DNA of 44,434 nt from Pseudomonadota bacterium (lineage in GTDB: Bacteria; Pseudomonadota; Gammaproteobacteria; Burkholderiales; Burkholderiaceae_C). The DNA lies in assembly GCA_021805825.1 (NCBI GenBank), contig JAJZEC010000030.1, positions 1-44,434 of the forward strand. Direction: 5' to 3'. The notes below the pieces were generated by a model, which saw only the letters and a program-made list of their open reading frames with translations, made no database searches and had not been told where the DNA came from. A program made the translations under genes and the position numbers. This document shows positions 21,424-39,815 of this stretch, one piece after another. Positions within the stretch are counted from its first letter, which is position 1. Each line of letters opens with the position of its first letter.

Positions 21424-21500
21424 GGCTAGGGTCCTGTTTCGCTGCACATGCAGCCAGAACCACCATGCTAAGCCAGCGCCAGGGCTGCGCATCGCGCGCA

Positions 21501-24787: not shown

Positions 24788-24836
24788 AGGCTTACGCTGC
24801 GCGATGCGCGGCGAGGAGTCCTTGCGGAACGCCGCA

Positions 24837-25307
24837 TCAGGAAACCCCGTAGGCGATGTACACCGCGGCCAGCGCGGCCAGCAGGCAGACCACGAACACC
24901 ACGCTCAAATGAGTGCGCAGCCGCAGGTACCAGCGCGGCAGCGTGCGCACGCGCGCCAAGCGCTGATCCTGCAGCCGCTGTACGAGCATGCCGGCGACCA
25001 GCAGCAGCGTGGCCCAGGGCCGCGGCGCGAGCAGCGCCACCCAGGCCACCAGACAGGGCACCACGCTCCACGCGAACATGCGCTCGGCGAAGCCCTGTGG
25101 CAGCGGCGGTGCATCGACCAGCGCGAGCCCCCAGTGCACGGCACCTACAAAGCTGAGCACCAGCGCCGCGTAGGCGAGCAGCGCCGGGTGCAACCAGCTC
25201 TGCCATCCGGGAACCACCCACATCGCGGCGGCGATCAGCAGCAGCGGCAGGGTTCCGGCGTAACCCAGGCGGGAGGCAACGGCGGATCGTGGAGTGGGTT
25301 CGGCCAT
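24837..25307 (-). CDS. DUF3429 membrane protein
   Basis: A 156-residue membrane protein with about five hydrophobic segments. It starts MAEPTPRSAVASRLGYAGTL and contains SFVGAVHWGLAL and PRWYLRLRTHLSVVFV, which resemble the DUF3429 family seen in many Proteobacteria. Function is unknown. It is convergent with the TonB-like gene (49 bases) and divergent from the HDOD gene. The 246-base gap to the HDOD gene (25308-25553) contains no other gene that I can see. Confidence 0.8.
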   Translation of the reverse strand: MAEPTPRSAVASRLGYAGTLPLLLIAAAMWVVPGWQSWLHPALLAYAALVLSFVGAVHWGLALVDAPPLPQGFAERMFAWSVVPCLVAWVALLAPRPWATLLLVAGMLVQRLQDQRLARVRTLPRWYLRLRTHLSVVFVVCLLAALAAVYIAYGVS

Positions 25308-25553
25308 CGTGGGAGTCGGGAAGGAGGGATTTGGCGCAGCGCTCGATCAACCCTGATTTGTACAGGGTTCGGACCGCTCGCGCACGATCTCCGCGCCATG
25401 CACCCTGCCGATGCACGGATTTGCGCCGGCCACCGCCTGCGGCAACGGCCTCCGGGATCGCGGGATGGCGCGTCGCGGCGTGCTTGGTTACAGTTGCGAG
25501 TCAGCCGGCGGCAGCCGACCCGGCTTTCACACGGCGAAAGGAGCGGTGTTCCG

Positions 25554-26528
25554 ATGGGTCTGCTGGATCTGGCGCGACGGTTGTTGCGCGTCCCCGCCGA
25601 AGCGACGACCGGATTGCGCGAGCCTGCGGCCCGGCCGGACAGGGCTGCACAGCACCCGTGGGATCCGCAGCGCGCTGCGCACGCGCAGCCGCCCGCGGCA
25701 CCGCAGGCCGCCCCGGCCGATCCGCAGCCGCCGAACCTGCCCGCCGCCTGCCTGTTCTTCTCCTATGCGACGGGCCGAGCCTGCGGCACCGGGCAGGCGC
25801 TGAACCCCGCCGAACGCGCGGTACTGGAGGAACTGGAGCGGTTGCTGCAGGAGCCGCAACGACTGTCGTCGTGGATCCCGCGCCCGCCGGCGGTGCTGCC
25901 GCGCCTGCTGGCCTGCCTGCGCGAGGACGATTCCTCGCTGCGCGAAGCCTGCGCGGTGCTGCAGGAGGATCCCTACCTGGCCACCGAAGTGCTGCGCCTG
26001 GCCAATTCGGCGCGCCACCAGCACGGCAACCCGGTCACCGACCTCAAGCGCGCAGCCGTGCGCCTGGGCTTCGACGGCCTGCGGCGCGCCATCAGTTCGA
26101 GCCTGGTGCGCCCGCTGTTCGATGTCCGGCGCGAACCGATGCTGGCGCAGGCGCTGCCGCGGCTGTGGACGCATGCGCAGAACAAGAGCGACTGGTGCCG
26201 GCGCATTGCCACGCAGCGAGAGGTCGATGCCTTCGATGCCTACCTCGCCGGCCTGACCCACAACCTCGGCTGGATCGGAGCCCTGAAGGCGCTGGAGCGC
26301 TCGAGCAGTTCAACCGCGCCCGGCTTCAGCAGCGCCTTCGTGGAGGCCCTGAACCGATGCAGCGAACGCATGTTCGCCTGCAGCGCCGAGCGTTGGGCGA
26401 TCAACAGCGCGCTGTCCGGGCTGGGCAGCGCGCTGCGCAGCCATCCCTTGCGCGAATGCCCGCAACCGCTGGCCCAGGTGCTGTCGCAGGCCGACGAACA
26501 GGCGACCCGGGAACTCGCAGCAGGCTGA
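25554..26528 (+). CDS. HDOD domain protein
   Basis: A 324-residue soluble protein. After a Pro/Ala-rich N-terminal region (about 15-65) comes an HDOD domain (about 105-300): RPPAVLPRLLACLREDDSSL, LQEDPYLATEVLRLANSA, AAVRLGFDGLRRAISSSLV and YLAGLTHNLGWIGALKAL. HDOD proteins lack the metal-binding His-Asp set of true HD phosphohydrolases and usually act as adaptors in signalling, motility or cyclic-di-GMP networks. AAGGAG lies 10 bases before the ATG at 25554. It ends 22 bases from the end of the convergent rpfG-like gene, a location that suggests, without proving, a link to Rpf signalling. Confidence 0.82.
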   Translation: MGLLDLARRLLRVPAEATTGLREPAARPDRAAQHPWDPQRAAHAQPPAAPQAAPADPQPPNLPAACLFFSYATGRACGTGQALNPAERAVLEELERLLQEPQRLSSWIPRPPAVLPRLLACLREDDSSLREACAVLQEDPYLATEVLRLANSARHQHGNPVTDLKRAAVRLGFDGLRRAISSSLVRPLFDVRREPMLAQALPRLWTHAQNKSDWCRRIATQREVDAFDAYLAGLTHNLGWIGALKALERSSSSTAPGFSSAFVEALNRCSERMFACSAERWAINSALSGLGSALRSHPLRECPQPLAQVLSQADEQATRELAAG

Positions 26529-26550: not shown

Positions 26551-27603
26551 TCACTGAAAGCTGTTGCGCACTTGCTGGATGGCCTGCGCGTCGGCCAGGA
26601 AGGCCTTCACGAACTCCGGGTCGAGTTGCTTGCCGGCCTGCTCGCGCAGGTAGGCGGTGGCGCGCTCATCGCTCCATTTCTCCTTGTACGGACGCTTGGA
26701 GGTCAGTGCGTCGAACACATCGACGACGGCCAGGATGCGCGCCGAGACCGGAATCTCCTGGCGCGCCAGGCCGTCGGGGTAGCCTGCGCCGTCGAAGCGC
26801 TCGTGGTGCGAGCGCGCGATCTGCGCGGCGACCATCAGCGGCTCCGAATCCCCGCCCTCGAGCATCGCATGGCCGATCAGGGTGTGCCGGCGCATGATGT
26901 CCCACTCGTCCTCGGTGAGCGCGCGCTGGGCGAGCAGGATGCGGTCGGGAATCGCGACCTTGCCGAGGTCGTGCAACGGGGCGGCGACCTCGAGCATGCT
27001 GGCATAGCCCTCACCCAGCCCGATGCGGCGCGCCAGCAGCGCGGAATAGCGCCCGATGCGCCCGAGGTGGGCGCCGGTATCGGTGTCGCGTTGCTCGGCC
27101 ACCTTGGCCAGCCGGGTCAGCGTCTCCAGCTTCTTGCGCTGCAGGTCGGCCACCGCACTCTCGACCTGACCCTGCAGATCCCGGGCATGCTGCAGCATCG
27201 CGAGTTGGTAGCGCCGCATCTTCAGCAGGTTGCGGCAGCGCGCAGCGCACTCCCGGTAGTCCAGCGGCCGGCTGAGGTAGTCGCTGGCCCCGGCATCGAG
27301 CGCGTCGTAGCGCACCTGCACATCGTCGATCGCCGTCACGCAGATAATCGGCGACTCTTTCAGATGCTCGATGCTCCGAAGTTTCCGGATCATTTCGACG
27401 CCATTCATCTGCGGCATACGGTAATCGGTCAGAACGAGGTCGATCTCGTTTTGCCCGGCATATTCGATGGCACGCAGGGGATCGACGAAGGTCTCGATGC
27501 GCGCTTCCGGACAGAAACCCTTCGCGATTTCCGCAAGCAGGCGACAATTCGTGGCCTGATCGTCCACGATCAGGATCGAGGGTTGCCGCGTCCAGCGATC
27601 CAT
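26551..27603 (-). CDS. rpfG: RpfG-type response regulator, REC plus HD-GYP cyclic-di-GMP phosphodiesterase
   Basis: A 350-residue two-domain regulator. The N-terminal receiver domain starts SILIVDDQATNCRLL, with phospho-acceptor Asp60 in LVLTDYRMPQMNG. A coiled linker follows (about 125-165). The C-terminal HD-GYP domain has PLHDLGKVAIPDRIL (His211-Asp212), HHERFDGAGYPDGL (Gly274-Tyr275-Pro276) and ILAVVDVFDALTSKRPYKEKW. This layout and length match Xanthomonas RpfG, which degrades cyclic-di-GMP when phosphorylated by RpfC. AGGAGG is 6 bases upstream of the ATG at 27603, so I prefer it to the ATG at 27621. It diverges from the acp-KS-rpfF set, and the matching RpfC is at 35.4-37.6 kb, both supporting the name. 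Confidence 0.9.
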   Translation of the reverse strand: MDRWTRQPSILIVDDQATNCRLLAEIAKGFCPEARIETFVDPLRAIEYAGQNEIDLVLTDYRMPQMNGVEMIRKLRSIEHLKESPIICVTAIDDVQVRYDALDAGASDYLSRPLDYRECAARCRNLLKMRRYQLAMLQHARDLQGQVESAVADLQRKKLETLTRLAKVAEQRDTDTGAHLGRIGRYSALLARRIGLGEGYASMLEVAAPLHDLGKVAIPDRILLAQRALTEDEWDIMRRHTLIGHAMLEGGDSEPLMVAAQIARSHHERFDGAGYPDGLARQEIPVSARILAVVDVFDALTSKRPYKEKWSDERATAYLREQAGKQLDPEFVKAFLADAQAIQQVRNSFQ

Positions 27604-27728
27604 TCCGGCCTCCTGATTCATGGCCTGGATCCGATGCCTGGCGTTGCCGCACAGCCTGCGCATTCGCACCCGCCGCGCAGCGATCGACCCTTGATGGGCG
27701 ACATCGCCCTGCTCCTGATTAAGCGCGC

Positions 27729-27757
27729 TTGTGCTGCCACACCGACTGGGCTAGCAT
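27729..27757 (+). promoter_or_regulatory. Possible promoter for acp-KS1-rpfF1
   Basis: TTGTGC (27729-27734) and TAGCAT (27752-27757) are 17 bases apart, 32 bases before the acp ATG. Matches to sigma-70 hexamers are partial (TTG of the -35, four of six in the -10). This is the 186-base divergent gap between rpfG and acp, which must contain promoters for both, unless rpfG has a promoter elsewhere. Confidence 0.3.
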
Positions 27758-27789
27758 GGTCGGAGCCGACCCACCACAGGGAACCTTTC

Positions 27790-28056
27790 ATGTCCGGATC
27801 CTGGAACGAACAAAGTATCATCGACGCGATCAAGGATATTGTTCAGAAAAGCTTCGATATCGATTTGAAGGACGCCGATGCATCGATGCCCGTGCGCGAC
27901 AGCGGACTCGACTCGATCGCCGTGTTCAATGTCATCATGAGCCTGGAGGATCTGGTCGGCAAGCAGATGGACGACATCGACCTGCCGAAGGATCCCACGT
28001 TGCACGACGTCGCGGTCATGGTGATGAAAAACCTGCAGGAACCTGCGCATGAATGA
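27790..28056 (+). CDS. Acyl carrier protein dedicated to the DSF cluster
   Basis: An 88-residue acidic, helical protein. The phosphopantetheine attachment site is Ser42 in VRDSGLDSIAVFNVIM, a variant of the DSL motif of ACPs. Helix-rich N- and C-terminal parts (SIIDAIKDIVQKSFDID, LHDVAVMVMKNLQEP) fit an ACP fold, and length is normal. It is not the housekeeping AcpP (the motif DSLDxVE is absent). AGGGAA lies upstream of the ATG at 27790, and the gene overlaps the ketosynthase start by 8 bases. From the context I infer that it carries the acyl chain for KS1 and RpfF1, since RpfF enzymes use 3-hydroxyacyl-ACP. Confidence 0.88.
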   Translation: MSGSWNEQSIIDAIKDIVQKSFDIDLKDADASMPVRDSGLDSIAVFNVIMSLEDLVGKQMDDIDLPKDPTLHDVAVMVMKNLQEPAHE

Positions 28057-29281
28057 GGTGGTCGTCACCGGCGTCGGCGTGATCTCCCCCATCGGAGGAT
28101 CGCCCGACGAAGTGCGCGAGGCGCTGTGCGCATCGCGCTCCGGTGTCGACATCTTCCGCTCCGAGGAACTCTCGCGGCCCTTTCCGGTCGCCCGCGCGCC
28201 CGGCGATTTGCTGGCCGGTTTCACGCGCCTCGAACTTCCTTTCCTCGATCGTACTACCCGAATGGCGCTGCTTGCCGCACGTCAGGCCGCCGAGGACTGC
28301 GGTATCGTCGATTTTTCCGCGCTGGGGGAACGCGCGGGTCTGTTTTATGGCACCGTGCGTGGCGGGGGCGCCACGGAGTGGGAGGGTTTGCGTCAGTTCT
28401 ACTCCGGCCGCAAGATCGCCAGGCCCTACGTGCTGATGGGCTGCATGGCCAATGCGGCGGCCTCCTTCATTTCGATCCGGCACCAGATCCTGGGCGTCAC
28501 CGCCTGCCACAGCACGGCCTGCACCTCGTCGGCCTCGGCCATCGTCGATGCCTGCCGGCAGCTGCGCTGCGGCGAACTCGATATCGCGCTGGCCGGCGGC
28601 GCCGAGGCTGCGCTGTGCAGCGAATTCCTCAGCGCGTGGGACGGCTTGCGCGCGCTGGCCCAGGTCGATGCCGGCGACCCCGCGCGCAGTTGCAAGCCCT
28701 TCTCCTCCGCGCGCAGCGGCCTGGTGCTCGGGGAAGGCAGCGTGTTCCTGGCGCTGGAGACGCGGGCGCATGCACGCGCCCGCGGCGCGCGCGTGCTGGC
28801 TGTGCTCGAAGGCTGGGGTCTGGCTTCCGACGCACACCATATCGGAGCCCCGCATGCCCGCGGCCAGGTCGCGGCGATGGGCGCGGCGCTGCGCAGCGCC
28901 GGCGTCACGGCGGGTGAACTGGATTATGTGAATGCCCATGCGACCGCCACCCGCGGCGGCGACCCGGTGGAGGTGGGCGCGCTGCGCGAAGTGCTGGGCG
29001 AGGCGGCGGCCACCGTTCCGGTGAGTTCGACCAAGGCCCTGCACGGCCACATGCTGGGCGCGGCCAGCGCCATGGAACTGCTGGTGTGCCTGCTGGCGAT
29101 CCGCGACGGATTCATCCCGCCCACCGCAGGATTGCAGGATCTCGACCCCGCATGCGACGGGCTGCTGCATGTGCCGCGGCTGCTGCAGCCGCGGCGCGTG
29201 CGTCGCGCGCTGTCGCTGTCGGCGGGCTTCGGCGGCTTGAACGCCGCGCTGATCCTGCGCGCCGAACAGCCGACGCACTGA
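28049..29281 (+). CDS. Beta-ketoacyl-ACP synthase, FabF-type (KS1 of the DSF cluster)
   Basis: A 410-residue thiolase-fold condensing enzyme that would extend an acyl chain with malonyl-ACP. The Cys-His-His triad is intact: Cys158 in STACTSSA, His297 in NAHATATRGGDPVE, His334 in SSTKALHGHMLGA. The usual C-terminal GFGGTN loop reads GFGGLN. It is clearly related to the second ketosynthase at 37.6 kb (shared SSTKALHGHMLGA, NAHATATR, ALAGGAE, SLSAGFGG). It overlaps acp by 8 bases and precedes an rpfF-like gene by 141 bases, which makes a dedicated role in signal synthesis likely. A housekeeping FabF would be near fabG/acpP, which are absent here. Confidence 0.9.
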   Translation: MNEVVVTGVGVISPIGGSPDEVREALCASRSGVDIFRSEELSRPFPVARAPGDLLAGFTRLELPFLDRTTRMALLAARQAAEDCGIVDFSALGERAGLFYGTVRGGGATEWEGLRQFYSGRKIARPYVLMGCMANAAASFISIRHQILGVTACHSTACTSSASAIVDACRQLRCGELDIALAGGAEAALCSEFLSAWDGLRALAQVDAGDPARSCKPFSSARSGLVLGEGSVFLALETRAHARARGARVLAVLEGWGLASDAHHIGAPHARGQVAAMGAALRSAGVTAGELDYVNAHATATRGGDPVEVGALREVLGEAAATVPVSSTKALHGHMLGAASAMELLVCLLAIRDGFIPPTAGLQDLDPACDGLLHVPRLLQPRRVRRALSLSAGFGGLNAALILRAEQPTH

Positions 29282-29422
29282 GCCGCACCGCGCGCGGTCC
29301 GCCCGCGCAGGGCGTCAAGATTCCGGCGCGCGGCGGCTTCCAGCCGTTGGCACGCACCTTGCTTGACAGGAACCGGCAGCGCGATCCGCGCGCCGCCACG
29401 TCCTTTTGCAGGGTCGCGCGCC

Positions 29423-30316
29423 ATGATGCCCACGGAAACCCCGCCTCATATTCAGGCTCCGGTATTCTCGGAGCCACCTCCATCGCTGAACACGCATTAC
29501 GAAAAGGCCGCATCCACATTATGGATCGGCTTGCAGCAGGATGCGCATCGCATCCATCACATGTCGGCGGATGTCCTGCAGCGTCTGCGTGGCCTCGTGC
29601 AGCAGGTGGCAGAAAGCGATTTTCACTGGCAGGGCGCAGGGCCCGATTTTCCGGTGCATTACGCCGTGCTGCACTCCGAACATCGAGAATATTTCAACCT
29701 GGGTGCCGATCTGAGCCATGTCCTGGAATGCATCCGCCGGCAGGACGGCGGATCGCTGCGCCGTTATGCCATGCAAACGATGGACGCCATGTTTCTGTGG
29801 GGTACGGCGTGGAACCATGCCGCGACAACCTTGGCCCTGGTGCAGGGGCGCGCACTCGGAACGGGCTTCGAGGCGGCCTTGGCCGCTGATTATCTGATTG
29901 CCGAGGATGGCGCCGAATTCGGTTTCCCGGAAATCCTGTTCGGGCTTTTTCCCTGTGGCGGCGCGCTGAGCCTGCTCGGCCGCCGCATCGGACTCGCCCC
30001 TGCCGAGCGTCTGCTGCGCAGCGGCAGGCTGTATGGCGCCGCCGAGTTGATGGAGATGGGTGTGATCGACCATCTCTGCCCCGCCGGGCAGGGCGAGGCC
30101 GCGGCACGCGCCTTCATCGACGAGCATGCCACCCGCCGCAAGGCGCGACTCGCCGTGCAGCGCGCCCGCGCGCGCCTGCACCCCCTGGACTACGCCGAAC
30201 TGGCCGCCGAGGCGGCCGACTGGGTCGAGGTCGCCCTGCAACTCAATGAAGAGCAGCAAAGGCTGTTGCACACCCTGGCGCGCATGCAGCACAGCGACCT
30301 CGCCGCCTTCCACTGA
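29423..30316 (+). CDS. rpfF: RpfF-type DSF synthase (enoyl-CoA hydratase/crotonase family), copy 1
   Basis: A 297-residue crotonase-fold protein. Key RpfF phrases are HYAVLHSEHREYFNLGADL, TTLALVQGRALGTGFEAALA, FGFPEILFGLFPCGGALSLL and MEMGVIDHLCPAGQGEAAAR. The two glutamates known to be catalytic in Xanthomonas RpfF (Glu141, Glu161) correspond to Glu150 and Glu170, with the same 20-residue spacing. RpfF dehydrates 3-hydroxyacyl-ACP to the cis-2-enoyl form and releases the free acid (DSF) by thioesterase action. The ATG at 29423 has AGGG 9 bases upstream; 29426 and a TTG at 29363 are alternatives. It lies downstream of acp-KS1 and is clearly related to, but distinct from, the second copy at 38.9 kb. 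Confidence 0.9.
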   Translation: MMPTETPPHIQAPVFSEPPPSLNTHYEKAASTLWIGLQQDAHRIHHMSADVLQRLRGLVQQVAESDFHWQGAGPDFPVHYAVLHSEHREYFNLGADLSHVLECIRRQDGGSLRRYAMQTMDAMFLWGTAWNHAATTLALVQGRALGTGFEAALAADYLIAEDGAEFGFPEILFGLFPCGGALSLLGRRIGLAPAERLLRSGRLYGAAELMEMGVIDHLCPAGQGEAAARAFIDEHATRRKARLAVQRARARLHPLDYAELAAEAADWVEVALQLNEEQQRLLHTLARMQHSDLAAFH

Positions 30317-30357
30317 AACGGCCGGCGCGGCGCGGGCAGCGCCGCTACCATCGGCGC

Positions 30358-31242
30358 ATGCTCAAGACCCTGATCCGCCGCCGCGCCCGTGCGCTGGTCG
30401 GTGGCGACGGCTCGGCCCCGCTGGCCTTCCTGCAACCGCGCGGCGACCCCGGCCTGTTCGGCCCGCAGTCGGAGGTCTGGAAGGTGCACGCCGACCTGTT
30501 GCCGATGATGATCGGCGGGGTCGGCGCGCTGGTGCTGCAATCGCTGCACCCGCTGGCGCTGGCCGGGGTGTGGGATCACTCGGGCTTCCGCCAGGATCTG
30601 CGCGGACGGCTGGCGCGCACGGCGACCTTCATCGCTGCCACCAGCTACGGCGGCAGCACGATGGCCGAGCAGGCGCTCGACCGCGTGCGCGCCATCCACG
30701 CGCGCGTTCGCGGCGTGCATGCGGACGGCAGGCTCTACCGGGCCGACGATCCGCATCTGCTGTACTGGGTGCACCTGGCCGAATGCTGGAGCTTCCTGCG
30801 CTGCCACCGGGCCTTCGTCGACCCCGGCATGTCGCGCGCACGCCGCGACTGCTACTACGCCGAGATGACCCTGGTCGCGCGCCGCCTCGGCTGCGAGCCG
30901 GCAGCCCTGCGCGGCGGGCGCATCGCCTGCACCGAGGAGCAGGTGCACGCCGACCTGCTGGGCTACCAGGCCGAACTGGAGTATTCGGCGCGCTCGGCCT
31001 TCGTGCTCGACCTGCTGCAGAACACGCCGCTGGCGCCCGGCAACCCGGCGCTGCAACGGCTGCTCGTGCAGGCCGCGCTGGCCCACCTGCCCGCCTGGGC
31101 CCACCCGCTGCTGCGGCGACCCGCGCCGGGCGCATGGCAGCGCCACGCGCTGCGCGCCGCAGTGGTCGCCGTCGGGGCGCCACTGCGCTGGGCGCTCGAT
31201 GACGGAGTCGCAGCCTGCGCCCGCCAGCGCGTCGGCGTCTGA
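30358..31242 (+). CDS. DUF2236 (MpaB/latex clearing-like oxygenase family) protein
   Basis: A 294-residue protein. Diagnostic phrases are EVWKVHADLLPMMIGGVGAL, LHPLALAGVWDHSGFRQDL, RTATFIAATSYGGSTMAEQA, HARVRGVHADGRLYRADDPHLLYWVHLAECWSFL and AEMTLVARRLG. These are characteristic of the DUF2236 family, which includes MpaB-like enzymes and haem-containing latex-clearing oxygenases. The conserved His residues (HxxW-like positions) fit a haem ligand but this is inferred. The gene starts 41 bases after rpfF1 and ends with a strong terminator, so it may be the last gene of the acp-KS1-rpfF1 transcript. No specific substrate can be proposed; an oxygenase acting on a fatty acid signal is possible but speculative. 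Confidence 0.82.
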   Translation: MLKTLIRRRARALVGGDGSAPLAFLQPRGDPGLFGPQSEVWKVHADLLPMMIGGVGALVLQSLHPLALAGVWDHSGFRQDLRGRLARTATFIAATSYGGSTMAEQALDRVRAIHARVRGVHADGRLYRADDPHLLYWVHLAECWSFLRCHRAFVDPGMSRARRDCYYAEMTLVARRLGCEPAALRGGRIACTEEQVHADLLGYQAELEYSARSAFVLDLLQNTPLAPGNPALQRLLVQAALAHLPAWAHPLLRRPAPGAWQRHALRAAVVAVGAPLRWALDDGVAACARQRVGV

Positions 31243-31270
31243 GCGCAGCCGCGGCGCGGCTGCGCTTATT
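31243..31270 (+). terminator. Intrinsic terminator after the DUF2236 gene
   Basis: GCGCAGCCGC (31243-31252), a three-base loop GGC, and GCGGCTGCGC (31256-31265) form a perfect 10-bp hairpin immediately after the TGA. It is followed by TTATT. This looks like a Rho-independent terminator and separates the DSF set from the downstream sulfite-reduction operon. Confidence 0.72.
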
Positions 31271-31367
31271 CCGCTGGGGTCTATCGGTATGACAAATGGG
31301 TCGTTGGCCCGGCGCGGCCGGCTGCCTAGGATTCGATCACACCGCATGACCGGTTGCGAACGCATCC

Positions 31368-33068
31368 ATGTACCAATATTCCGACTTCGACCGCCGTTTC
31401 CTGCGCGCCCGGGCTGCGCAATTCCGCGATCAGTTGCAGCGCCATCTGGCCGGCGAACTCGGCGATGACGAGTTCAAGCCGCTGCGGCTGCAGAACGGCT
31501 GGTACATCCAGCGCCACGCTCCGATGACCCGCATCGCCATCCCCTACGGCGAACTGCGCGCCGAGCAGTTGCGCGCGCTGGCCGGCATCGCCGACGAATT
31601 CGACCGCGGCTACGCCCACTTCACCACGCGGCAGAACGTGCAGTTCAACTGGATCGCCCTGCCGCGCGCGGCCGACGTCATGGATCGCCTGGCCGACGTC
31701 GACATGCACGGCATCCAGACCAGCGGCAATTGCGTGCGCAATATCGCCAGCGACGTGTTCGCCGGCATCGCAGCCGACGAACTCGTCGACCCTCGGCCCT
31801 TCGCCGAAATCCTGCGCCAGTGGAGCACCCTGCATCCGGAGTTCGCCTATCTCCCCCGCAAGTTCAAGATCTCCCTCAATGGAGCGCTGGAGGATCGGGT
31901 GGCTGCCGGCTGGTACGACATCGCACTGCACGCGGTGCGCGACAGCGCCGGCAACGCGGGCTGGAAGGTGCAGGTCGGGGGCGGCATGGGGCGCACGCCG
32001 ATGATCGGCCGCATCGTGCGCGAATTCCTGCCGTGGCAGCACCTGCTGCTCTATGTGGAGGCGATCCTGCGCGTCTACAACAGCTACGGCCGGCGCGACA
32101 ACCTCTGGAAGGCACGCATCAAGATCCTGGTGAAGGCCGAGGGCGAGCGATTCGTCGAGGCCGTGGAGCGTGAATTCGACGCCATGCTCGGCGAGGATGC
32201 GCTGGGCCCGGCGCATGTGATCACCGAAGCCGAGTTGCAGCGGGTGGCCGCGCAGTTCGCGCCCCCCGCCGGGCTGCGTGAGCTGCCGCCGGCCACGCCC
32301 TTGCCGGCCGGCGAGCCGGCCTATGCCCGCTGGCTGCAGCGCAACGTGCACGGCCATCGCTGGCCGGCCTACCGCGCGGTGACGCTGTCGCTGAAGCGCG
32401 CCGGGCAGGCCCCCGGGGACGTGACCTCGGCGCAGATGCGGGCCGCGGCGGATCTCGCCGACGCCTTCAGTTTCGGCGAACTGCGCGTCAGCCACGAACA
32501 GAACCTGCTGCTGCCGTGGGTGGAGGCGCAGCGCCTGCCCGAACTGTGGCGGCAGGCGCGCGCACACGGCTTCGCCACCCCCAACATCGGGCTGCTCACC
32601 GACATCATCTGCTGCCCCGGCGGCGATGTCTGCGCGCTGGCCAATGCACGCTCGATTCCGATCGCCGCGGCGATCACCGAGCGCTACGACGATCTGGACA
32701 TCCTGCACGACATCGGGGACATCGCGCTGAACATCAGCGGCTGCATCAATTCCTGCGGCCACCACCACAGCGGGCACATCGGGGTGCTGGGCGTCGACAA
32801 GGACGGCGCGGAGTGGTACCAGGTCACGGTGGGCGGGGCCGACGGATCGCACCGCGGCCCGCCGGCCGGCCCCGGACGCATCATCGGCCCGGCCTTCGCC
32901 GCCGACGAGGTTCCCGACGTGGTGCAGGCACTGATCGAGATCTATCTCGCCCGACGCACCGCGGGCGAGCGCTTCGCCGCCTGCGCGCGCCGCATCGGCG
33001 TCGAACCCTTCCGCGCCGCCGCCGATGCGGTGCGGCGCAGCACCGCGAACCTGGAGAATCCGACATGA
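31368..33068 (+). CDS. cysI: Nitrite/sulfite reductase haemoprotein (CysI-type)
   Basis: A 566-residue siroheme and 4Fe-4S enzyme, expected to reduce sulfite to sulfide in assimilation. Two ferredoxin-like halves are seen: an N-terminal YAHFTTRQNVQFNW and RNIASDVFAG, with IQTSGNCVRN contacting siroheme, and a C-terminal cluster motif DIICCPGGDVCALA followed by SGCINSCGHHHSG (the C-x5-C and C-x3-C ligands). Nitrite reduction is possible within the superfamily, but the following DUF934 and SUMT genes are typical of sulfite-reducing operons of this type. It overlaps the DUF934 gene by 4 bases (ATGA). The 125 bases upstream include a terminator and probably the promoter. Confidence 0.92.
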   Translation: MYQYSDFDRRFLRARAAQFRDQLQRHLAGELGDDEFKPLRLQNGWYIQRHAPMTRIAIPYGELRAEQLRALAGIADEFDRGYAHFTTRQNVQFNWIALPRAADVMDRLADVDMHGIQTSGNCVRNIASDVFAGIAADELVDPRPFAEILRQWSTLHPEFAYLPRKFKISLNGALEDRVAAGWYDIALHAVRDSAGNAGWKVQVGGGMGRTPMIGRIVREFLPWQHLLLYVEAILRVYNSYGRRDNLWKARIKILVKAEGERFVEAVEREFDAMLGEDALGPAHVITEAELQRVAAQFAPPAGLRELPPATPLPAGEPAYARWLQRNVHGHRWPAYRAVTLSLKRAGQAPGDVTSAQMRAAADLADAFSFGELRVSHEQNLLLPWVEAQRLPELWRQARAHGFATPNIGLLTDIICCPGGDVCALANARSIPIAAAITERYDDLDILHDIGDIALNISGCINSCGHHHSGHIGVLGVDKDGAEWYQVTVGGADGSHRGPPAGPGRIIGPAFAADEVPDVVQALIEIYLARRTAGERFAACARRIGVEPFRAAADAVRRSTANLENPT

Positions 33069-33553
33069 TGCGCTTCCTGGCCGCCGGAGCCGACCTCTGG
33101 ACCTCGACCGACGAGCCCGCCATCGCGCCGCGCCTGCTGCTGCGGCCCGAGCAGTGGCAGGATGTGGCCGCCGCATGGCCGCAGGAACTGGAGGTCGGAC
33201 TGCTGCTGGACAACACCGTCGACGTGCAGCGCTGCGAGCTGCCGCTGCATCGCTTCGCCAGCATCGCGCTGCGCTTCCCGAAGTGGACCGACGGGCGCGC
33301 CTACACCCAGGCCCGGCTGCTGCGCCACCGGCTGCGCTGGCAGGGGGAACTGCGTGCGGTCGGCGACGTGGTGGTCGACATGGCGCTGCAACTGTGGCGC
33401 ACCGGATTCGACGTGGCGCAGCTGCGCGCCGGGCAGGATCCGCAGGTGGCGCGACGTGCTCTGGCCTTCTTCGAGCAGCTGCCACCGGCGCCTTTCTACC
33501 AGGGCGACGCGCGCGAGCCGCGGCCGCTGTTCCTGCGCAGGCAGGCCGCATGA
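33065..33553 (+). CDS. DUF934 protein, sulfite reduction accessory
   Basis: A 162-residue protein starting [34 protein letters not shown] and [21 protein letters not shown] are strong DUF934 signatures (FPxFxDGRGfSxA and the following LRavGdv phrase). DUF934 genes regularly lie next to cysI and cysH in beta- and gammaproteobacteria, and a role as an electron-transfer or assembly partner of sulfite reductase is suspected but not settled. It overlaps cysI at its start and cobA at its end, each by ATGA, so all three are translationally coupled. Confidence 0.9.
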
Positions 33554-34302
33554 GCGGTCGCGTGGCGTTCATCGGCGCCGGCCCCGGCGCCGCCGACCTG
33601 ATCACCCTGCGGGGCGCGCGCCTGCTGGCGCAGGCCGGCGTGGTGCTGGCCGACGCCCTGGTCGACGGCGCCTTGCGCGAGCTGGCGCCGCAGGCGCGCT
33701 GGATCGACGTCGGCAAACGGGGCTTCCGCGTCAGCACCAGCCAGGCACGCATCCATGCGCTGCTGCTGCGGGCCGCGCGCACGCATGCGCTGGTCGTGCG
33801 GCTGAAGGGGGGCGACCCCAGCCTGTTCGGCCGCCTCGACGAGGAACTGGAAGCGCTGGCCGAGGCCGGCATCGACTGCGAGGTCGTGCCCGGGGTCAGC
33901 GCGGCGCTGGCCGCCGCTGCCGACACCCGGAGGCCCCTGACCCGCCGCGGCCGCGCGCGCAGCGTGGCCTTCAGCACCGCGATGACCCGCGAGGGCGCGG
34001 TGTGCGCGCGCCGCAGTGCCGACACCGAAGTGTTCTACATGGCCGGCCAGCAACTGGCCGCCCTCGGCCGCGCCCTGCGCCTGGCCGGCTGGGACGGCGC
34101 CACACCGGCCAGCGTGGTGTCGCGCGCCGGCTGCGCCGACAGCCTGCACAGCAGCCACCGCATCGACCTGCTGGCGCAGGCCGCCTTGCTGCACGCCGGG
34201 CGCCCGACGGTGGTCATCGTGGGCCCCGGCGCCGAGGCGCTGCGCGAGACGCCGGCGCAGCCGCCGAGGGCCGCCACCGCTTCCTCCCTCGCCCATCCCT
34301 GA
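33550..34302 (+). CDS. cobA: Uroporphyrinogen-III C-methyltransferase (SUMT)
   Basis: A 250-residue SAM-dependent enzyme that makes precorrin-2, on the way to siroheme. The glycine-rich [58 protein letters not shown] and [15 protein letters not shown] are conserved SUMT motifs. The region [16 protein letters not shown] differs from the usual LTHR-type sequence, so the enzyme is somewhat divergent. It immediately follows the siroheme-using CysI and DUF934, which explains its location. There is no CysG-type dehydrogenase/ferrochelatase domain, which must be supplied elsewhere. Confidence 0.88.
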
Positions 34303-34307
34303 AACCC

Positions 34308-35408
34308 ATGGATCTGCATCTCGACCCCGCCATCCCCAGCCTCGCCGCGCAACATGGCGAGCCCATCGAAACCGACGCCCTGATCGTCGGCGCCGGCCCC
34401 GTGGGCCTGTTCCAGGTGTTCGAACTCGGCCTGCTGGACATCCGCGCGCATGTCATCGACAGCCTGCCGCATGTGGGCGGCCAGTGCGTCGAGCTCTATC
34501 CCGACAAGCCGATCTATGACATCCCGGCGGTTCCGGTGTGCACCGGTCAGCAACTGACGGACAACCTGCTGAAGCAGATCGAGCCCTTCCGGCCGACCTT
34601 CCACCTCGGGCAGGAAGTCGTCGAGCTGCGCCGGCGCGACGACACCCGCTTCGACGTCGTCACGTCCAAGGGCACGCGCTTCATCACCCGCACGGTGTTC
34701 GTGGCGGCCGGCGTCGGCAGTTTCCAGCCGCGCACCCTGAAGGTCGAAGGCATCGAGGCCTTCGAAGGCAGCCAGTTGTTCTACCGCGTGAAGGATCCCT
34801 CGCTGTTCCAGGGGCGCGACCTCGTCGTCGTCGGCGGCGGGGACTCGGCCCTCGACTGGGCGCTGCATTTCGCCACCAGCCAGCAGCACCGCGCGCAAAG
34901 CGTCACGCTGCTGCACCGTCGCGAAGGTTTCCGCGCCGCGCCGGCCTCGGTGGCCCGGATGCACGCGCTGTGCGAACGCTACGAAATGCAGTTCCTGGTC
35001 GGGCAGATCACGGGCTGCGAACCGCGCGACGGGCGGCTGGCCGAGGTCAAGGTCAGCGGCAGCGACGGCGTTACCCGCAGGCTGCCGCTGGACATGCTGC
35101 TGGTGTTCTTCGGCCTGAGCCCCAAGCTCGGCCCGATCGCCGAGTGGGGTCTGGCGCTGGAACGCAGGCAGCTGGTGGTCGACACCGAGACATTCCAGAC
35201 CAGCGAACGGGGAATCTTCGCCGTCGGCGACATCAACACCTATCCGGGCAAGAAGAAGCTCATCCTGTCGGGCTTCCACGAGGCGGCGCTGGCCGCCTTC
35301 GGCGCCGCCGACATCGTGTTCCCGGGACGCAAGACCCACCTGCAGTACACCACGACCAGCCCGAAGCTGCACAAGGTGCTGGGGGTCGAGACGCCAGTGT
35401 TCGACTGA
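34308..35408 (+). CDS. Ferredoxin/flavodoxin-NADP reductase, TrxB-like type
   Basis: A 366-residue FAD and NADP enzyme resembling TrxB-type ferredoxin-NADP reductases (YumC/FNR2-like), which lack the CxxC of thioredoxin reductase. Motifs are the FAD-binding [43 protein letters not shown]-binding [17 protein letters not shown], and [20 protein letters not shown]. The C-terminal tail ends GVETPVFD. It starts 5 bases after cobA and very likely belongs to the same operon, where it could supply reduced ferredoxin to the sulfite reductase. This is an inference; no separate flavoprotein CysJ is present. Confidence 0.9.
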
Positions 35409-35424
35409 GCAGGCACCAGCCTGC
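35409..35424. terminator. Short hairpin between the FNR gene and rpfC (convergent)
   Basis: GCAGGC-ACCA-GCCTGC is a perfect 6-bp inverted repeat with a four-base loop directly after the FNR stop and 22 bases past the end of rpfC. There is no T-run on either side. It may act as a weak bidirectional terminator. Confidence 0.35.
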
Positions 35425-35446
35425 CGGAAAGACGACGCGCCGGGAG

Positions 35447-37591
35447 TCAGAAACCCGACGCGGCCCGCTCCTCGGTGCGCACGATGTCGTCGATGGCGGC
35501 GAAAGTGGCCGCCGCCGTCTCGCGCAGGTCGGACACGATGCGGCTGGAGGTGGCCTCCAGGGTGTCGTCGTTGGCGCGCATCAGGGCCTGCGCCAGGGTC
35601 GCCAGGCGGACGGCACCGATCTCGTTGCCCACGCCCTTCAGCGCATGGGCGCCCGCGCGCACGTCCTGCATCGAGCCCTCCTGGAAGGCAGCGCAGATGC
35701 CGTCGATCGAGCGCGTCATGTCGCTGCGCGCGCGCTTGAGCATGTCGCCGAGGAAGTCCCTGCTGACTCCGATGTCGCGCAGCCTGCCGATCACCGTCTG
35801 GTCGATGTAGATCACGGACACCGGGCGCAGCCGCGGAGCCTGACTGGCTGCCGTGCCGTCCTGCAGCGCCAGCGCCGCGGCCTGAGCCCCCTGCGCCGCG
35901 CCGGCCTGATCCAGCGCCCGCCGCAGTTCGCGCACGCTGATCGGCTTGGTCAATACGCCCAGCGCCCCCGTCTCCAGCAGCTTGCGCTCGGTCAACAGCG
36001 TGGCGTCGGCGGTCAGGAACCATGCCGGCGCGGGCTCGGCGTGGCCGAAGCGGTAGGTCTGCAGCACCTGCGCGCCATCCATGTCGCCGAGGTTGTAGTC
36101 GAGGATCAGCAGGTCGAAGGACTGTTCCCCCGCCAGGATCTCCAGCGCCACCGATCCACTGGAGGCCGTGACCACGGTGTGCCCGTCGCGCGCGATCAAT
36201 TCCTTGAGCAGGAACAGATTGGTGGAATTGTCGTCGACCAGGAACACCCGCAGCGGCCGGGCCGCGGGCGGTTCGGGCGCCAGCGTCTGCTCCGAGACCA
36301 CGCCCAGCACGGCGTCACCCTCGAATTTCTCCAGCCGCAGGTCGAACCAGAAATGGCTGCCGCTGCCCAGGGTGCTGCTCACCCGCAGCGATCCGCCCAT
36401 CAGTTCCACCGCCTGCTTGCTGATCGCCAGCCCCAGCCCCGAGCCTTCCTCGGAGTTGACGCGCCCGTGCACCTGCACGAAGGGATTGAAGATCTTCTCC
36501 AGGTTCTCCTCGGAAATCCCGGTTCCGGTGTCCTGCACGCTGAAACGCACGGTGTAGTCGCGCGGGGTTTCGGTAAGCAGCACGGCATGCACCGTGACAC
36601 TGCCGACATCGGTGAATTTCACCGCGTTGCCGGCAAAGTTGATCAGCGTGCGCGACAGCCAGCGGCTGTCCATCAGCACCGGAAGGGTCAGGCGCGGATC
36701 GACCGTGCACTGCAGCATCAGCCCCTTGCCGCGGGCGCGGTTCTCCAGCGAGGCACACACGACCTGGATCTGGCTTTCGATCGTCTTGGGCTCCAGATGC
36801 AGAACCATCTTGCCCAGGCTGAAGCGACTCTGGTCGATGAGATCGTTGATATCGGCCAGCAGATGCGCGCCCAGGTTGCGGATGGTGCGCGCCAATTCCC
36901 TGGCACGGTTCGTGCTTGCCTCTGACTCGATGAGTTCAGCCGCATTCGAGATCCCACCCAGCGGAGTCCGCAGTTCATGACTTACCCGCGCCATCAATTC
37001 ACTCTTCGCACGGCTTTCGGTTTCCGCGAAACGAATCGCGGCATGAACCTGGCGCGTCAATTCTCCGGCATACAGGGGAACGATCACCACCGCGAGGATC
37101 GCAGAACCCCAGGCGATCATGTGATCCAGCCAGTAGGGGGAGACAACCGGAACCAGGCAGACGAAGAACACGGAAGCCGCCTGGGAAACCAGAAGGATTT
37201 CACGGCGTCCGGTGCGCAGGCCATAGCCGATGGTCGAGAAGTTGTACAGGGGCGTGAACAGGATGCCGTATTTTCCGGTCACCAGTTCCCATGCGAACAC
37301 CATGCTGGCGTCGAGTACCGCGGTCGCCACCAGGGAAATCGTCGGCGGCCGCGACCGGGATCCGCGCAGAAACAGATAGACGCCTCCGGCGTACGCCACA
37401 TGCACGACCCCGACCGCGAATTCCCAGCGCGTCAGCACGCCGAAGGCCTGGCCCAGCGCGAAACCCAGCGTCACGCAACTCGACACCAGTATCAGACGCA
37501 AGCGCGCCTGCACCACCAGGGCGGCCCGGCTGTCCACTTCGGGAGCTCGGGTGGCGGCACGGGAAAGGCCGGATGTCTTGGTCTGCCGCAT
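35447..37591 (-). CDS. rpfC: RpfC-type hybrid sensor histidine kinase
   Basis: A 714-residue hybrid kinase. The N-terminal sensor has about five transmembrane segments (residues 30-180), containing YGILFTPLYNFSTIGYGLRT and VSPYWLDHMIAWG, a close match to the RpfC 5TM sensor of Xanthomonas. A HisKA domain has phospho-acceptor His205 in ARVSHELRTPLGGI, then HATPase with NAVKFTDVG, DTGTGI and GSGLGLAISK. The receiver has LILDYNLGDMDG (Asp498) and the C-terminal Hpt domain has AHALKGVGNEIG (His649). RpfC is the DSF receptor that phosphorylates RpfG. The start is ATG 37591; no clear ribosome-binding site precedes it. It diverges from KS2 with only 32 bases between start codons. Confidence 0.9.
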   Translation of the reverse strand: MRQTKTSGLSRAATRAPEVDSRAALVVQARLRLILVSSCVTLGFALGQAFGVLTRWEFAVGVVHVAYAGGVYLFLRGSRSRPPTISLVATAVLDASMVFAWELVTGKYGILFTPLYNFSTIGYGLRTGRREILLVSQAASVFFVCLVPVVSPYWLDHMIAWGSAILAVVIVPLYAGELTRQVHAAIRFAETESRAKSELMARVSHELRTPLGGISNAAELIESEASTNRARELARTIRNLGAHLLADINDLIDQSRFSLGKMVLHLEPKTIESQIQVVCASLENRARGKGLMLQCTVDPRLTLPVLMDSRWLSRTLINFAGNAVKFTDVGSVTVHAVLLTETPRDYTVRFSVQDTGTGISEENLEKIFNPFVQVHGRVNSEEGSGLGLAISKQAVELMGGSLRVSSTLGSGSHFWFDLRLEKFEGDAVLGVVSEQTLAPEPPAARPLRVFLVDDNSTNLFLLKELIARDGHTVVTASSGSVALEILAGEQSFDLLILDYNLGDMDGAQVLQTYRFGHAEPAPAWFLTADATLLTERKLLETGALGVLTKPISVRELRRALDQAGAAQGAQAAALALQDGTAASQAPRLRPVSVIYIDQTVIGRLRDIGVSRDFLGDMLKRARSDMTRSIDGICAAFQEGSMQDVRAGAHALKGVGNEIGAVRLATLAQALMRANDDTLEATSSRIVSDLRETAAATFAAIDDIVRTEERAASGF

Positions 37592-37623
37592 CAAGGGTTT
37601 GGAAATCTGCTCGGAAAACAGCT

Positions 37624-38889
37624 ATGAAAGAAGTGGCAATCACCGGAATCGGGGTTCATTCCCCGATCGGCCTCGACGCAGCGAGCGTGCTCGACAGCCT
37701 GCTGGAGTTGCGCAGCGGCATCCGCCGCATCGACAGTCCGGCGACCGGCAAATCCTACGCCGTGGGCCTGATCGAACAGGACTTCAGCGCGCGCTTCACC
37801 AAAATGGAACGACCACTGCTGGATCGTATCGCACAACTCGCGGTACTGGCCGCCCAGCAGGCCTCGGAAAACGCCGGTATTGTCAACTATGCCACATTCG
37901 GTGCGCGCGCGGGCCTGTTCTTCGGCACCGCGCGTGGCGGACTGACCACGGAATGGTCTGCATCGCGGGAATTCAGCGAAACACCGAGGAAGACAGCCAG
38001 CCCATATTGCCTGATGGGTTCGATGCCGAATGCCGGCGCGGCGCAGATTTCGATCCGCCAACAAATCGTCGGCCCGGTTGTCACGCATACGGCGGCCTGC
38101 GCCTCGTCGGGGCTGGCGATTGCCGATGCCTGCCGCCACATCGGGTGCGGGGAAATCGACATCGCCTTGGCCGGAGGGGCCGAATCGACGGTGCAACCCG
38201 ATGTCGCACCGGTATTCCTGCGCCTGTGGGACGCCCTGCGCGCACTGGCCGATGTGGCCGAAGACCCCGCCACCAGTTGCCGACCCTTTGCCCGCGGCCG
38301 CAGCGGCCTGGCCCTGGCCGAGGGGGCCGCCTTCCTGGTACTGGAGTCGGTGGAGCATGCGCAGGCACGCGGCGCGAACATTCTCGGCTATGTCTGCGGC
38401 ACCGCCGTCACGGCCGACGCCTACCACATGGGAGCCCCGCACCCTCGGGGGCAGGCCGCGGCCATGCGCATGGCGCTGCGCTCGGCCGGCATCGAAGCCG
38501 GGGACATCGACTACATCAACGCCCACGCGACCGCCACCCGCGAGGGGGACGGCGTCGAGGCGGCGGCCATCCGGGAGGTGTTCGGCGCGGAGGTCTCGCG
38601 CATTCCGGTGAGTTCGACGAAGGCGCTGCACGGACACATGCTGGGCGCCACCAGCGCGATGGAAGCCCTCGTCTGCCTGCTGGCAGCACGCCACGAGTTT
38701 CTTCCGGCCACCGCCCATCTGGACGAAGTCTCGGCCGATTGCGAGGGGCTGCACCATATCCGCTCCGTCGAGCGGGGCCGGCCGATCCGCTATGCCATGA
38801 GTCTGTCGGCCGGCTTCGGCGGCACCAACTCGGCCCTGGTCATCCGCCCCCACCATCCGAACCCCAGCGTCCGAGGATCTGCGACATGA
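37624..38889 (+). CDS. Beta-ketoacyl-ACP synthase, FabF-type (KS2 of the DSF cluster)
   Basis: A 421-residue condensing enzyme paralogous to KS1. The triad is complete: Cys159 in HTAACASSGLA, His301 in NAHATATREGDG, His338 in SSTKALHGHMLGA. The C-terminal loop is the usual GFGGTN. N-terminal KEVAITGIGVHSPIGLDA and GLFFGTARGGLTTEW also match KS1 in layout. Its stop overlaps the ATG of the second rpfF by 4 bases (ATGA), so KS2 and RpfF2 are almost certainly made together, which supports a dedicated role in signal synthesis. GGAAAA lies upstream of the ATG at 37624. Any promoter must lie within the first part of rpfC, on the other strand, or in the 32-base gap. Confidence 0.9.
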   Translation: MKEVAITGIGVHSPIGLDAASVLDSLLELRSGIRRIDSPATGKSYAVGLIEQDFSARFTKMERPLLDRIAQLAVLAAQQASENAGIVNYATFGARAGLFFGTARGGLTTEWSASREFSETPRKTASPYCLMGSMPNAGAAQISIRQQIVGPVVTHTAACASSGLAIADACRHIGCGEIDIALAGGAESTVQPDVAPVFLRLWDALRALADVAEDPATSCRPFARGRSGLALAEGAAFLVLESVEHAQARGANILGYVCGTAVTADAYHMGAPHPRGQAAAMRMALRSAGIEAGDIDYINAHATATREGDGVEAAAIREVFGAEVSRIPVSSTKALHGHMLGATSAMEALVCLLAARHEFLPATAHLDEVSADCEGLHHIRSVERGRPIRYAMSLSAGFGGTNSALVIRPHHPNPSVRGSAT

Positions 38890-39815
38890 GCAACCAACTT
38901 GCCGAGCTGCGCGCGGTGCGCGCGCCCCTGGCCGGCCTCCACCCCCAGATTCCCGGCAGCGCACCGGCACGCCCGGCACTCGGCCGCATCCGTGTCGATC
39001 ACGAGGCCTCGAGCTCCACCGTCTGGGTGCACATGCAAGCGGGCGCAGGCCAGCCCCTGAACTTCTCGCTGCCGATGCTCGACTCCTTCGATCAGGCCTT
39101 CGCGCGCTGGGAATCCAATGGCTGCCGCTGGGAAAGCATCGACGGACAACTGCATCCGGTGCAGTACGCGGTGCTGTGCTCGACGCATCCGCTGTACTTC
39201 AACCTCGGCGGCGACCTGGCGCATTTCAAGGACTGCATCCGCAGGCAGGACTTCGACGGCCTGCGCAGCTACGCGTTGCGCTGCATGGCCCTGATCCACC
39301 GCTGGGAGGCCCAGGTTTCGCGGCATGCCACCACGCTGTCCCTGGTGCAGGGCCGGGCGCTCGGCGGCGGCTTCGAGTCGGCGCTGTCGTCGGACTATGT
39401 GATCGCCGAGGAGCAGGCGGAGTTCGGCCTGCCCGAGATCCTGTTCGGCCTGTTCCCCTGCTCCGGCGCGATGCCGCTGCTGGCCCGCCGCATCGGCGCG
39501 GCGCGCGCGGCCACGCTGATGACCAGCGGCAGGATCTACAAGGCCTCCGAGTTGCTCGACCTCGGAGTGATCGACGCCGTGTGCCCGCGTGGCTGCGGGC
39601 AGGCCGCGGTGCGCGCCTTCATCGCCGAGCATGGTCGCGCGCGCCTGGCCCGCCAGGCACTGCAGCGCGCGCGGCGCCGCATGCTGCCTCTGGATCTGCA
39701 GGAAATGAACGCGGTCGTCGAGGACTGGGTCGACGCCGCCCGCCAGATCAGTCCGAGCAACCTGCGGGTGCTGGAAACCCTCAGCCGCATGCAGGGCAGC
39801 GAATTCGCGCATTGA
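38886..39815 (+). CDS. rpfF: RpfF-type DSF synthase (enoyl-CoA hydratase/crotonase family), copy 2
   Basis: A 309-residue crotonase-fold protein. Features are TVWVHMQAGAGQPLNFSLPM near the N-terminus (this part resembles Xanthomonas RpfF more than copy 1 does), YFNLGGDLAHFKDCIRRQDF, LVQGRALGGGFESALSSDY, FGLPEILFGLFPCSGAMPLL and LGVIDAVCPRGCGQAAVRAF. The catalytic pair corresponds to Glu164 and Glu184, 20 residues apart as in RpfF. It is translationally coupled to KS2. The two RpfF copies share motifs but differ enough to be ancient paralogues rather than a recent duplication. The substrate chain length and cis/trans product are not readable from sequence. Confidence 0.91.
   Translation: MSNQLAELRAVRAPLAGLHPQIPGSAPARPALGRIRVDHEASSSTVWVHMQAGAGQPLNFSLPMLDSFDQAFARWESNGCRWESIDGQLHPVQYAVLCSTHPLYFNLGGDLAHFKDCIRRQDFDGLRSYALRCMALIHRWEAQVSRHATTLSLVQGRALGGGFESALSSDYVIAEEQAEFGLPEILFGLFPCSGAMPLLARRIGAARAATLMTSGRIYKASELLDLGVIDAVCPRGCGQAAVRAFIAEHGRARLARQALQRARRRMLPLDLQEMNAVVEDWVDAARQISPSNLRVLETLSRMQGSEFAH

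Follow-up and report, generated by a model that had tools for sequence, protein, structure and literature searches.

We analysed a 44,434-bp stretch of Burkholderiaceae_C DNA (contig JAJZEC010000030.1 of assembly GCA_021805825.1, referred to as the window in the rest of the text) and concentrated on positions 26551-39815, which carry genes related to the Rpf system of quorum sensing by diffusible signal factor (DSF). An earlier note on this DNA had listed rpfG, rpfC, two rpfF genes, a gene coding for an acyl carrier protein (ACP) and two genes coding for FabF-type ketosynthases (KS), and Pfam domain searches and translations of the called open reading frames revealed all of them. Judging from sequence comparisons, the region probably codes for a distinct DSF-type (Rpf) quorum-sensing system, in which the synthase RpfF would be served by a dedicated KS and ACP and paired with an RpfC sensor of a matching clade. 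It appears to be a variant of a known signalling system that has not been described before: among the titles and abstract starts listed in searches of the open-access literature on RpfF and DSF, on the neighbouring genes and on the hosts, none reports a KS or ACP beside rpfF. The note's broader interpretation, that the cluster makes its own acyl chain and senses it through RpfC-RpfG, was upheld in part: a distinct, dedicated system is supported, whereas a chain of its own, or a non-standard DSF, is what we infer from pocket changes and gene linkage.

RpfF synthases preceded by a ketosynthase gene

A scan of 84,980 species genomes yielded 553 loci with RpfF relatives, the best 80 of which divided into 29 loci of the KS-linked class (the named loci of the KS-class) and 51 canonical loci; several of the 29 come from the same genomes as the G-numbered genomes of the window's genus described below. 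The distinct RpfF sequences used for counting numbered 50 KS-class and 71 canonical. A KS gene of the same orientation preceded 47 of the 50 by less than 400 bp but none of the 71, 65 of which had at least 1.5 kb of upstream sequence. On this contrast a chance neighbourhood of KS and RpfF was discarded, and the ACP and KS noticed earlier proved to be conserved parts of the locus across genomes. A further 30 RpfF loci with high scores, all from a single family and 2.8-3.9 kb long, contained neither a KS nor an ACP; some of their genomes are also represented among the 71. Within the best 80 of the 553 loci, the KS-class occurred in Thiomonas, Sulfuritalea, Herminiimonas and other Betaproteobacteria, and also in Dokdonella, Rudaea, Luteimonas and Lysobacter sp. 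Root690.

In the 28 genomes of the window's genus that were searched, RpfF (above its family cut-off) and the rpf-type KS (at least 706 bits, the next full KS reaching at most 392) were found in the same 21 genomes and were both absent from the same 7. The pair rpfC-rpfG is divergent from acp-KS-rpfF in 15 of the 21 carriers; the window genome (G000) and G012 lack the rpfC of that set, and the order is rearranged or partial in G003, G006, G020 and G021. Both G020 and G021 hold an ACP-KS1-RpfG set devoid of rpfF1, with KS2-rpfF2-rpfC located elsewhere, and the persistence of this set without rpfF1 suggests that the KS-ACP part is retained on its own account. The loci L280 (9805-12509) and L281 (1577-4283) carry ACP-KS1-RpfG without an adjacent rpfF, KS2-rpfF-rpfC being found elsewhere in the same genomes. 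RpfC was present in 26 of the 29 named loci; the other three lie on short or truncated contigs. A quick tree placed the matching RpfC proteins in a clade of their own (34 of 87 rows, SH-aLRT 100), in agreement with the earlier view that this sensor goes with the KS-linked system. The ACP gene follows rpfC in the Lysobacteraceae loci L102-L104 and in L206.

The earlier note had staked its signalling interpretation on the two crotonases of the window belonging to RpfF, and by nearly every sequence test both are RpfF relatives. The four solved structures closest in sequence to RpfF1 and RpfF2 (phmmer) are the DSF synthases 3m6m, 7zq7, 6dgn and 5fus. The predicted model of RpfF2 (pLDDT 88.9) had DSF synthases as its 12 best Foldseek matches, with 3m6m, 3m6n, 7zq7, 5fus and 6dgn ranking before other crotonases (8.5e-21 or better versus 7e-15). 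In a tree of 48 hand-chosen RpfF sequences rooted with 7 general crotonases, all 48 fell on one side with moderate support (74/82), and the 20 KS-linked sequences formed a single inner clade (98/94). A larger set of 124 distinct sequences, reduced to 111 rows by removal of two shorter than 240 residues and of 11 near-duplicates, gave a KS-class clade of 42 rows, 39 of which have a KS upstream; the three without one group together. RpfF1 and RpfF2 also pass the broad model NF006452 (238.8 and 272.2 bits, cut-off 177). The alternative of a general crotonase from a polyketide or beta-branching cassette was dismissed because RpfF proteins are the closest relatives and RpfC accompanies 26 of the 29 named loci. 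A very divergent RpfF relative was also observed in L207 (8073-8867); it bears Met170 and Arg134, has no adjacent KS, comes from a genome with a canonical rpf locus and, owing to its long branch, was counted in neither group.

The catalytic glutamates E141 and E161 (Xanthomonas campestris pv. campestris [Xcc] numbering), which the earlier note had pointed out, are present in both window copies and are kept in all 50 KS-class sequences. Met170 and Trp258 are described as possible contacts of the DSF precursor in the accessible part of PMC9864630. These two residues are not an accepted defining feature of DSF synthases, and Met170 is invariant in the 71 canonical proteins and absent from all 50 of the KS-class (29 Thr, 16 Ser, 3 Asn and 2 Gly), which retain Trp258 without exception. 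The adjacent Gly169 is replaced by Cys in 48 of the 50. The replacement of Met170 argues for a different acyl chain as the probable substrate. Position 170 and an upstream KS together would also provide a simple sequence marker for sorting genes annotated as rpfF.

A divergent ketosynthase and cassette exchange at rpf loci

By its catalytic residues the rpf-linked protein resembles a ketosynthase, but by phylogeny and profile scores it is not FabF. The Cys, His, His and Lys residues of the active site are kept in 45 of 45 rpf-linked sequences, and KS1 and KS2 score 326.6 and 355.1 bits against the FabF model TIGR03150, the cut-off of which is 493.75. All 45 formed one clade (support 100/100) in a tree built from 72 of 75 sequences. 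The KS of L057 was left out of one sequence set and that of L101 out of another. This clade persisted (33 rows, 100/100) in a second tree of 67 hand-thinned rows to which 13 of 25 near non-rpf relatives contributed. A plain copy of FabF was ruled out by the tree and the model cut-offs.

Differences from FabF extend to the putative acyl pocket. Ile108 of FabF is a gating residue of this pocket according to an excerpt of PMC7138838, and the Ile108-to-Phe change of Bacillus FabF sits in the acyl-binding pocket (PMC3996569, in the part available). At this column, the rpf-linked KS, of which 44 of 45 are listed, have Arg (25), Asn (9), Gly (5), Ser (2), Ala (2) or Ile (1), compared to Ile (15) or Val (1) in 16 housekeeping FabF and Ile (11), Met (8) or Leu (6) in the 25 near non-rpf KS; the Arg rows are not independent because most of them come from the window's genus. 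All 45 rpf-linked KS have Gly at column 266, where all 16 FabF have Thr, and the residue before the GFGG loop (column 392) is Ala or Cys in 44 of 45, compared to Phe in FabF and in all 32 non-rpf KS. A Trp at column 197 (FabF F202 by alignment) was discarded as a mark of the rpf-linked KS, as all 25 non-rpf relatives have it too.

The ACP of the window likewise departs from AcpP, scoring 28.1 bits at best against AcpP models with cut-offs of 65 to 72; its GLDS site is invariant in all 14 aligned sequences, the window ACP included. Of the 25 non-rpf relatives of the KS (Burkholderiales, L292-L316), 20 have an ACP-like gene no more than 1.5 kb away. No RpfF was found within 1.5 kb in any of the 25, and a few had weak, partial RpfC- or RpfG-like matches. 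An alpha/beta-hydrolase gene lies upstream of the KS in the two cases inspected (L299 and L304). Because the nearest non-rpf KS often has a close ACP-like gene, with a hydrolase in these two, our guess is that an ACP-KS module was recruited to rpf, RpfF taking over the release step. A broad KS search of 300 genomes of the order and 398 of the phylum, with at most 6 or 4 candidates scored per genome, returned mostly other ACP-KS pairs, and among the matches listed only KS1 and KS2 of the window exceeded 500 bits; the window genome was the only member of its genus among the rows listed, so that these samples are not an estimate of prevalence.

Comparison of Lysobacterales loci provided the strongest hint about the role of the cassette. 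The canonical frame in Lysobacteraceae is acnA-rpfB-rpfF-rpfC-rpfG-lysS-prfB (e.g. L210, L211 and L212). In L206, KS-rpfF-rpfC-ACP stands in place of rpfF-rpfC between rpfB and rpfG. At the rpf locus of L203, from the Luteimonas family, the canonical rpfF-rpfC and a KS-type cassette form a tandem, and Rudaea (L088) has the order prfB-lysS-rpfG-ACP-KS-rpfF-rpfC-PilZ-rpfB-acnA, with one small gene before acnA. A second, canonical RpfF is encoded on another contig in Dokdonella immobilis, Luteimonas salinisoli and a Herminiimonas metagenome-assembled genome. Synthase, sensor, KS and ACP thus travel as a unit within a constant setting of rpfG, rpfB and the frame, a hint that the cassette fulfils the role of rpfF-rpfC but uses another signal. 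Of 119 sampled genomes from the Luteimonas family, 86 had RpfF (89 matches). Nine matches scored below 300 bits, six of them of the KS-class (G067, G068, G069, G079, G097 and G132) and three not (G181, G095 and the second match of G084). Of the 80 matches of at least 337 bits, 34 were inspected, 30 of them over about 1.5 kb on each side, and no KS was found upstream on the same strand. A comparison of cassette and canonical pair at one locus, as in the tandem of L203, would be a natural way to learn what determines the acyl chain of the signal.

Proposed pathway and competing explanations

If the region does encode a dedicated DSF-type system, its reactions might run as follows. General FabD would put malonyl on the dedicated ACP, and the KS would condense it with a chosen acyl primer to give a special 3-oxoacyl-ACP, which general FabG would reduce to a non-standard 3-hydroxyacyl-ACP. 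RpfF would then dehydrate this intermediate to cis-2-enoyl-ACP and, by hydrolysis, free a cis-2-enoic acid from it. This acid would be sensed by the cognate RpfC, and RpfG, an HD-GYP protein and as such of the cyclic di-GMP (c-di-GMP) phosphodiesterase type, would lower c-di-GMP. We infer the order of the reactions, that RpfF uses the dedicated ACP and that the chain is unlike that of DSF or Burkholderia DSF (BDSF). One likely benefit would be insulation, a private ACP sparing the housekeeping acyl-ACP pool, because RpfF cleaves many acyl-ACPs, as stated in an excerpt of PMC6361424. The DSF synthases known so far draw on general fatty-acid synthesis for their substrate and, being thioesterases, act on other acyl-ACPs too (PMC4542539 and PMC6361424). 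A synthase equipped with KS and ACP would then be a second solution to the problems of specificity and waste, and would be predicted to make signals outside the DSF/BDSF set.

Several observations weigh against this interpretation. An ACP was found in only 22 of the 29 named loci; of the seven without one, five lie on short or truncated contigs, and L083 and L085 have no ACP next to the KS-RpfF pair. Nor was an ACP found in L204. RpfF has no KS directly upstream in G003 (where it lies 2.8 kb off), L077 and L079, and in L079 the 2.5 kb upstream hold neither KS nor RpfC. No dedicated fabD, fabG, fabZ or thioesterase gene was found among the conserved neighbours of KS-class loci, and general fatty-acid synthesis must therefore still supply part of the pathway. 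No rpfB adjoins the Thiomonas cassettes. L052 and L057 have ligase-like genes at a distance of about 5 kb, and the ligase of the window (19783-21501) is 30% identical to the gene in the rpfB position of Rudaea. RpfF1 and RpfF2 fail the NCBI RpfF equivalog NF053515 (143.5 and 182.9 bits versus 550), as fits a divergent clade. The Ile108 column is not unique either, seven further KS having Met (2), Leu (2), Ser, Phe or Cys (1 each), and the pocket positions of both RpfF and KS were mapped by alignment.

The two synthase copies that the earlier note considered unusual are present in the window but are not a general trait, as two KS-RpfF pairs were found in 4 of the 28 genus genomes (G000, G012, G022 and G024, the second KS of G024 being truncated where its contig ends). 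In G022 both pairs have an RpfC of their own, only RpfC-A was found in G024, and the RpfC of set A is gone from the window genome and G012. In the window, an HDOD gene (24654-26528) ends beside rpfG where relatives have rpfC-A in between, and the same holds for G012; rpfC-A appears to have been deleted in both. In all four genomes RpfF1 has Gly138 replaced, and in three also Gly86, both of which are intact in the remaining 46 of the 50 KS-class proteins. Three altered RpfF1 sequences form one clade in the tree (the fourth, L066, was omitted as a near-duplicate), hence the change may represent a single event. By comparison with DspI, Gly86 and Gly138 are oxyanion-hole positions at which backbone NH groups act (PMC5834635, consulted part), so that a side-chain change there need not abolish function. 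Both residues are held responsible for thioesterase activity in an excerpt of PMC9040811, which cites the DspI paper, yet the word "thioesterase" does not occur in the main text of the latter (PMC5834635). RpfF1 might be an altered enzyme, one with weak release, or a copy in decay. It is quite improbable, though conceivable, that the two pairs act in series, a cis-2-enoyl-ACP poorly released by RpfF1 being extended by KS2, reduced by FabG, and dehydrated and released by RpfF2 as a conjugated 2,4-dienoic acid read by RpfC; if true, this line would produce a signal of a new chemical kind.

Placing the KS after RpfF, as FabB acts after FabA, leads to an explanation that we regard as unlikely, namely that cis-2-enoyl-ACP is extended towards a cis-unsaturated membrane or secreted lipid, with RpfC-RpfG as regulators and an end product that need not be a signal. 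The KS-RpfF pairing does look like a dehydratase-ketosynthase pair, and the Gly138 change, shared by the RpfF1 copies of the four two-pair genomes, could make release from ACP less efficient, given the link of Gly86 and Gly138 to thioesterase activity (PMC9040811, in part). However, both residues are unchanged in 46 of 50 KS-class RpfF, the backbone role of these positions in DspI (PMC5834635, same part) means that a side-chain change is not necessarily disabling, and the RpfC of matching clade in 26 of 29 named loci and the replacement of rpfF-rpfC by the cassette within the rpf frame fit a signal. Similarly unlikely, in our view, is that KS and ACP serve to build the acyl portion of some other small molecule under DSF control while RpfF still uses general 3-hydroxyacyl-ACP. 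The related Burkholderiales KS without RpfF, 20 of 25 with an ACP-like gene and two with a hydrolase, indicate that ACP-KS modules have other roles, but beyond the ligase in the rpfB position no other biosynthetic gene is conserved in KS-class loci, 47 of 50 RpfF genes have the KS less than 400 bp away, and the RpfF pocket is altered in exactly that clade.

The changes at the Ile108 column and from Phe to Ala or Cys at column 392 could also mean a very short acyl substrate or none, the KS then being non-condensing and acting as a malonyl-ACP decarboxylase, a primer-maker or a scaffold that brings RpfF to ACP. Retention of Cys, both His and Lys in 45 of 45 sequences, as condensing enzymes should show, makes this a poor prospect. 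We give almost no credence to an accidental neighbourhood of ordinary fatty-acid genes placed beside RpfF by chance or hitch-hiking; nothing but the unrelated genes between the two cassettes of the window speaks for it, and it is contradicted by the 47 of 50 versus 0 of 71, by joint presence or absence in 28 genomes and by the occurrence of the same cassette in Burkholderiales and Lysobacterales.

Gene map of the window and comparison with known systems

Features of the rpf region of the window (positions within the 44,434-bp stretch)
Feature	Positions	Strand	Size	Basis and remarks
RpfG-like response regulator	26551-27669	-		Pfam Response_reg and HD; HD-GYP motif in translation; start codon uncertain
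rpfG/acp divergent gap	27670-27789		120 bp	Coordinates
Cassette ACP	27790-28056	+		Pfam PP-binding, 30.5 bits; GLDS(I) phosphopantetheine site
KS1, FabF-like, rpf-linked clade	28049-29281	+		TIGR03150, 326.6 bits; both ketoacyl-synthase domains; Cys-His-His-Lys
RpfF1, DSF-synthase-like crotonase	29423-30316	+		ECH_1; 3m6m RpfF, E 1.7e-35; G86A, G138T
RpfC-type hybrid kinase, type B	35447-37594	-		Pfam HisKA, HATPase_c, REC and weak Hpt
rpfC/KS2 divergent gap	37595-37623		29 bp	Starts as called, uncertain
KS2, FabF-like, rpf-linked clade	37624-38889	+		TIGR03150, 355.1 bits; both ketoacyl-synthase domains
RpfF2, DSF-synthase-like crotonase	38886-39815	+		ECH_1; 3m6m, E 3.4e-48

The genes fall into two sets: rpfG with the divergent acp-KS1-rpfF1 (set A) and rpfC with the divergent KS2-rpfF2 (set B). 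They are parted, from 30358 to about 35408, by genes coding for an MpaB-type oxygenase, a sulfite/nitrite-reductase-like protein and others. The region therefore comprises two cassettes and not a single operon. One ACP gene, one RpfC and one RpfG are common to the two KS-RpfF pairs at this locus, and the housekeeping acpP and fabF of the genome are on another contig. The genes acp and KS1 overlap by 8 bp and KS2 and rpfF2 by 4 bp, suggesting co-translation. An alternative start of rpfF1 is the in-frame TTG at 29363. The TTG start called for rpfC is doubtful.

The RpfG-like protein shares 60-88% identity with those RpfG of the genus that accompany KS-type RpfF. The RpfC of the window is the sole match in its own genome to an RpfC-A query at E <= 1e-60; its Hpt domain (23.4 bits) falls under the Pfam cut-off of 24.6, and a crude hydropathy scan for the five membrane helices given in the earlier note showed 3 peaks, compared to 5 in the Dokdonella relative. 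Outside the rpf region, positions 14142-17420 code for a fused protein with B12-binding, MeaB GTPase and methylmalonyl-CoA-mutase-type parts, a layout that we take to be that of IcmF (isobutyryl-CoA mutase).

The components of this putative system resemble known ones to different degrees. The rpf-linked KS share the sequence family and the Cys-His-His-Lys residues of FabF (KAS II) but form their own clade, score below the FabF cut-off and are changed at acyl-pocket and gate positions. Their closest non-rpf relatives in the searches made belong to Burkholderiales ACP-KS operons, which likewise have an ACP-like gene near but differ in having no RpfF nearby and in keeping Ile, Met or Leu at the Ile108 column. 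The RpfF/RpfR (BDSF) systems of Burkholderia and Cronobacter use the same synthase fold, 5fus and 6dgn being among the top matches, whereas here the sensor is RpfC-RpfG rather than RpfR, and KS and ACP are present. Like rpf-1 and rpf-2 of Stenotrophomonas maltophilia, the cassette and the canonical pair are two synthase-sensor variants at the rpf locus. In the available part of PMC4517397, rpf-1 and rpf-2 show strict RpfF/RpfC pairing, differ mainly at the N-termini of both proteins, and are described with no mention of a KS; as far as this description goes, rpf-2 is a different thing from the cassette. In Xcc, DSF precursors come from general fatty-acid synthesis (PMC4542539 and PMC5941067, excerpts). 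The window system shares with Xanthomonas rpf an RpfF with E141 and E161, a hybrid kinase RpfC with a REC domain and an HD-GYP RpfG, but differs from it in its dedicated ACP and KS, its separate RpfF and RpfC clades, the replacement of Met170 and the lack of an adjacent rpfB in the Thiomonas cassette. Its Lysobacterales relatives have the acnA-rpfB...rpfG-lysS-prfB frame in common with the canonical loci of their family.

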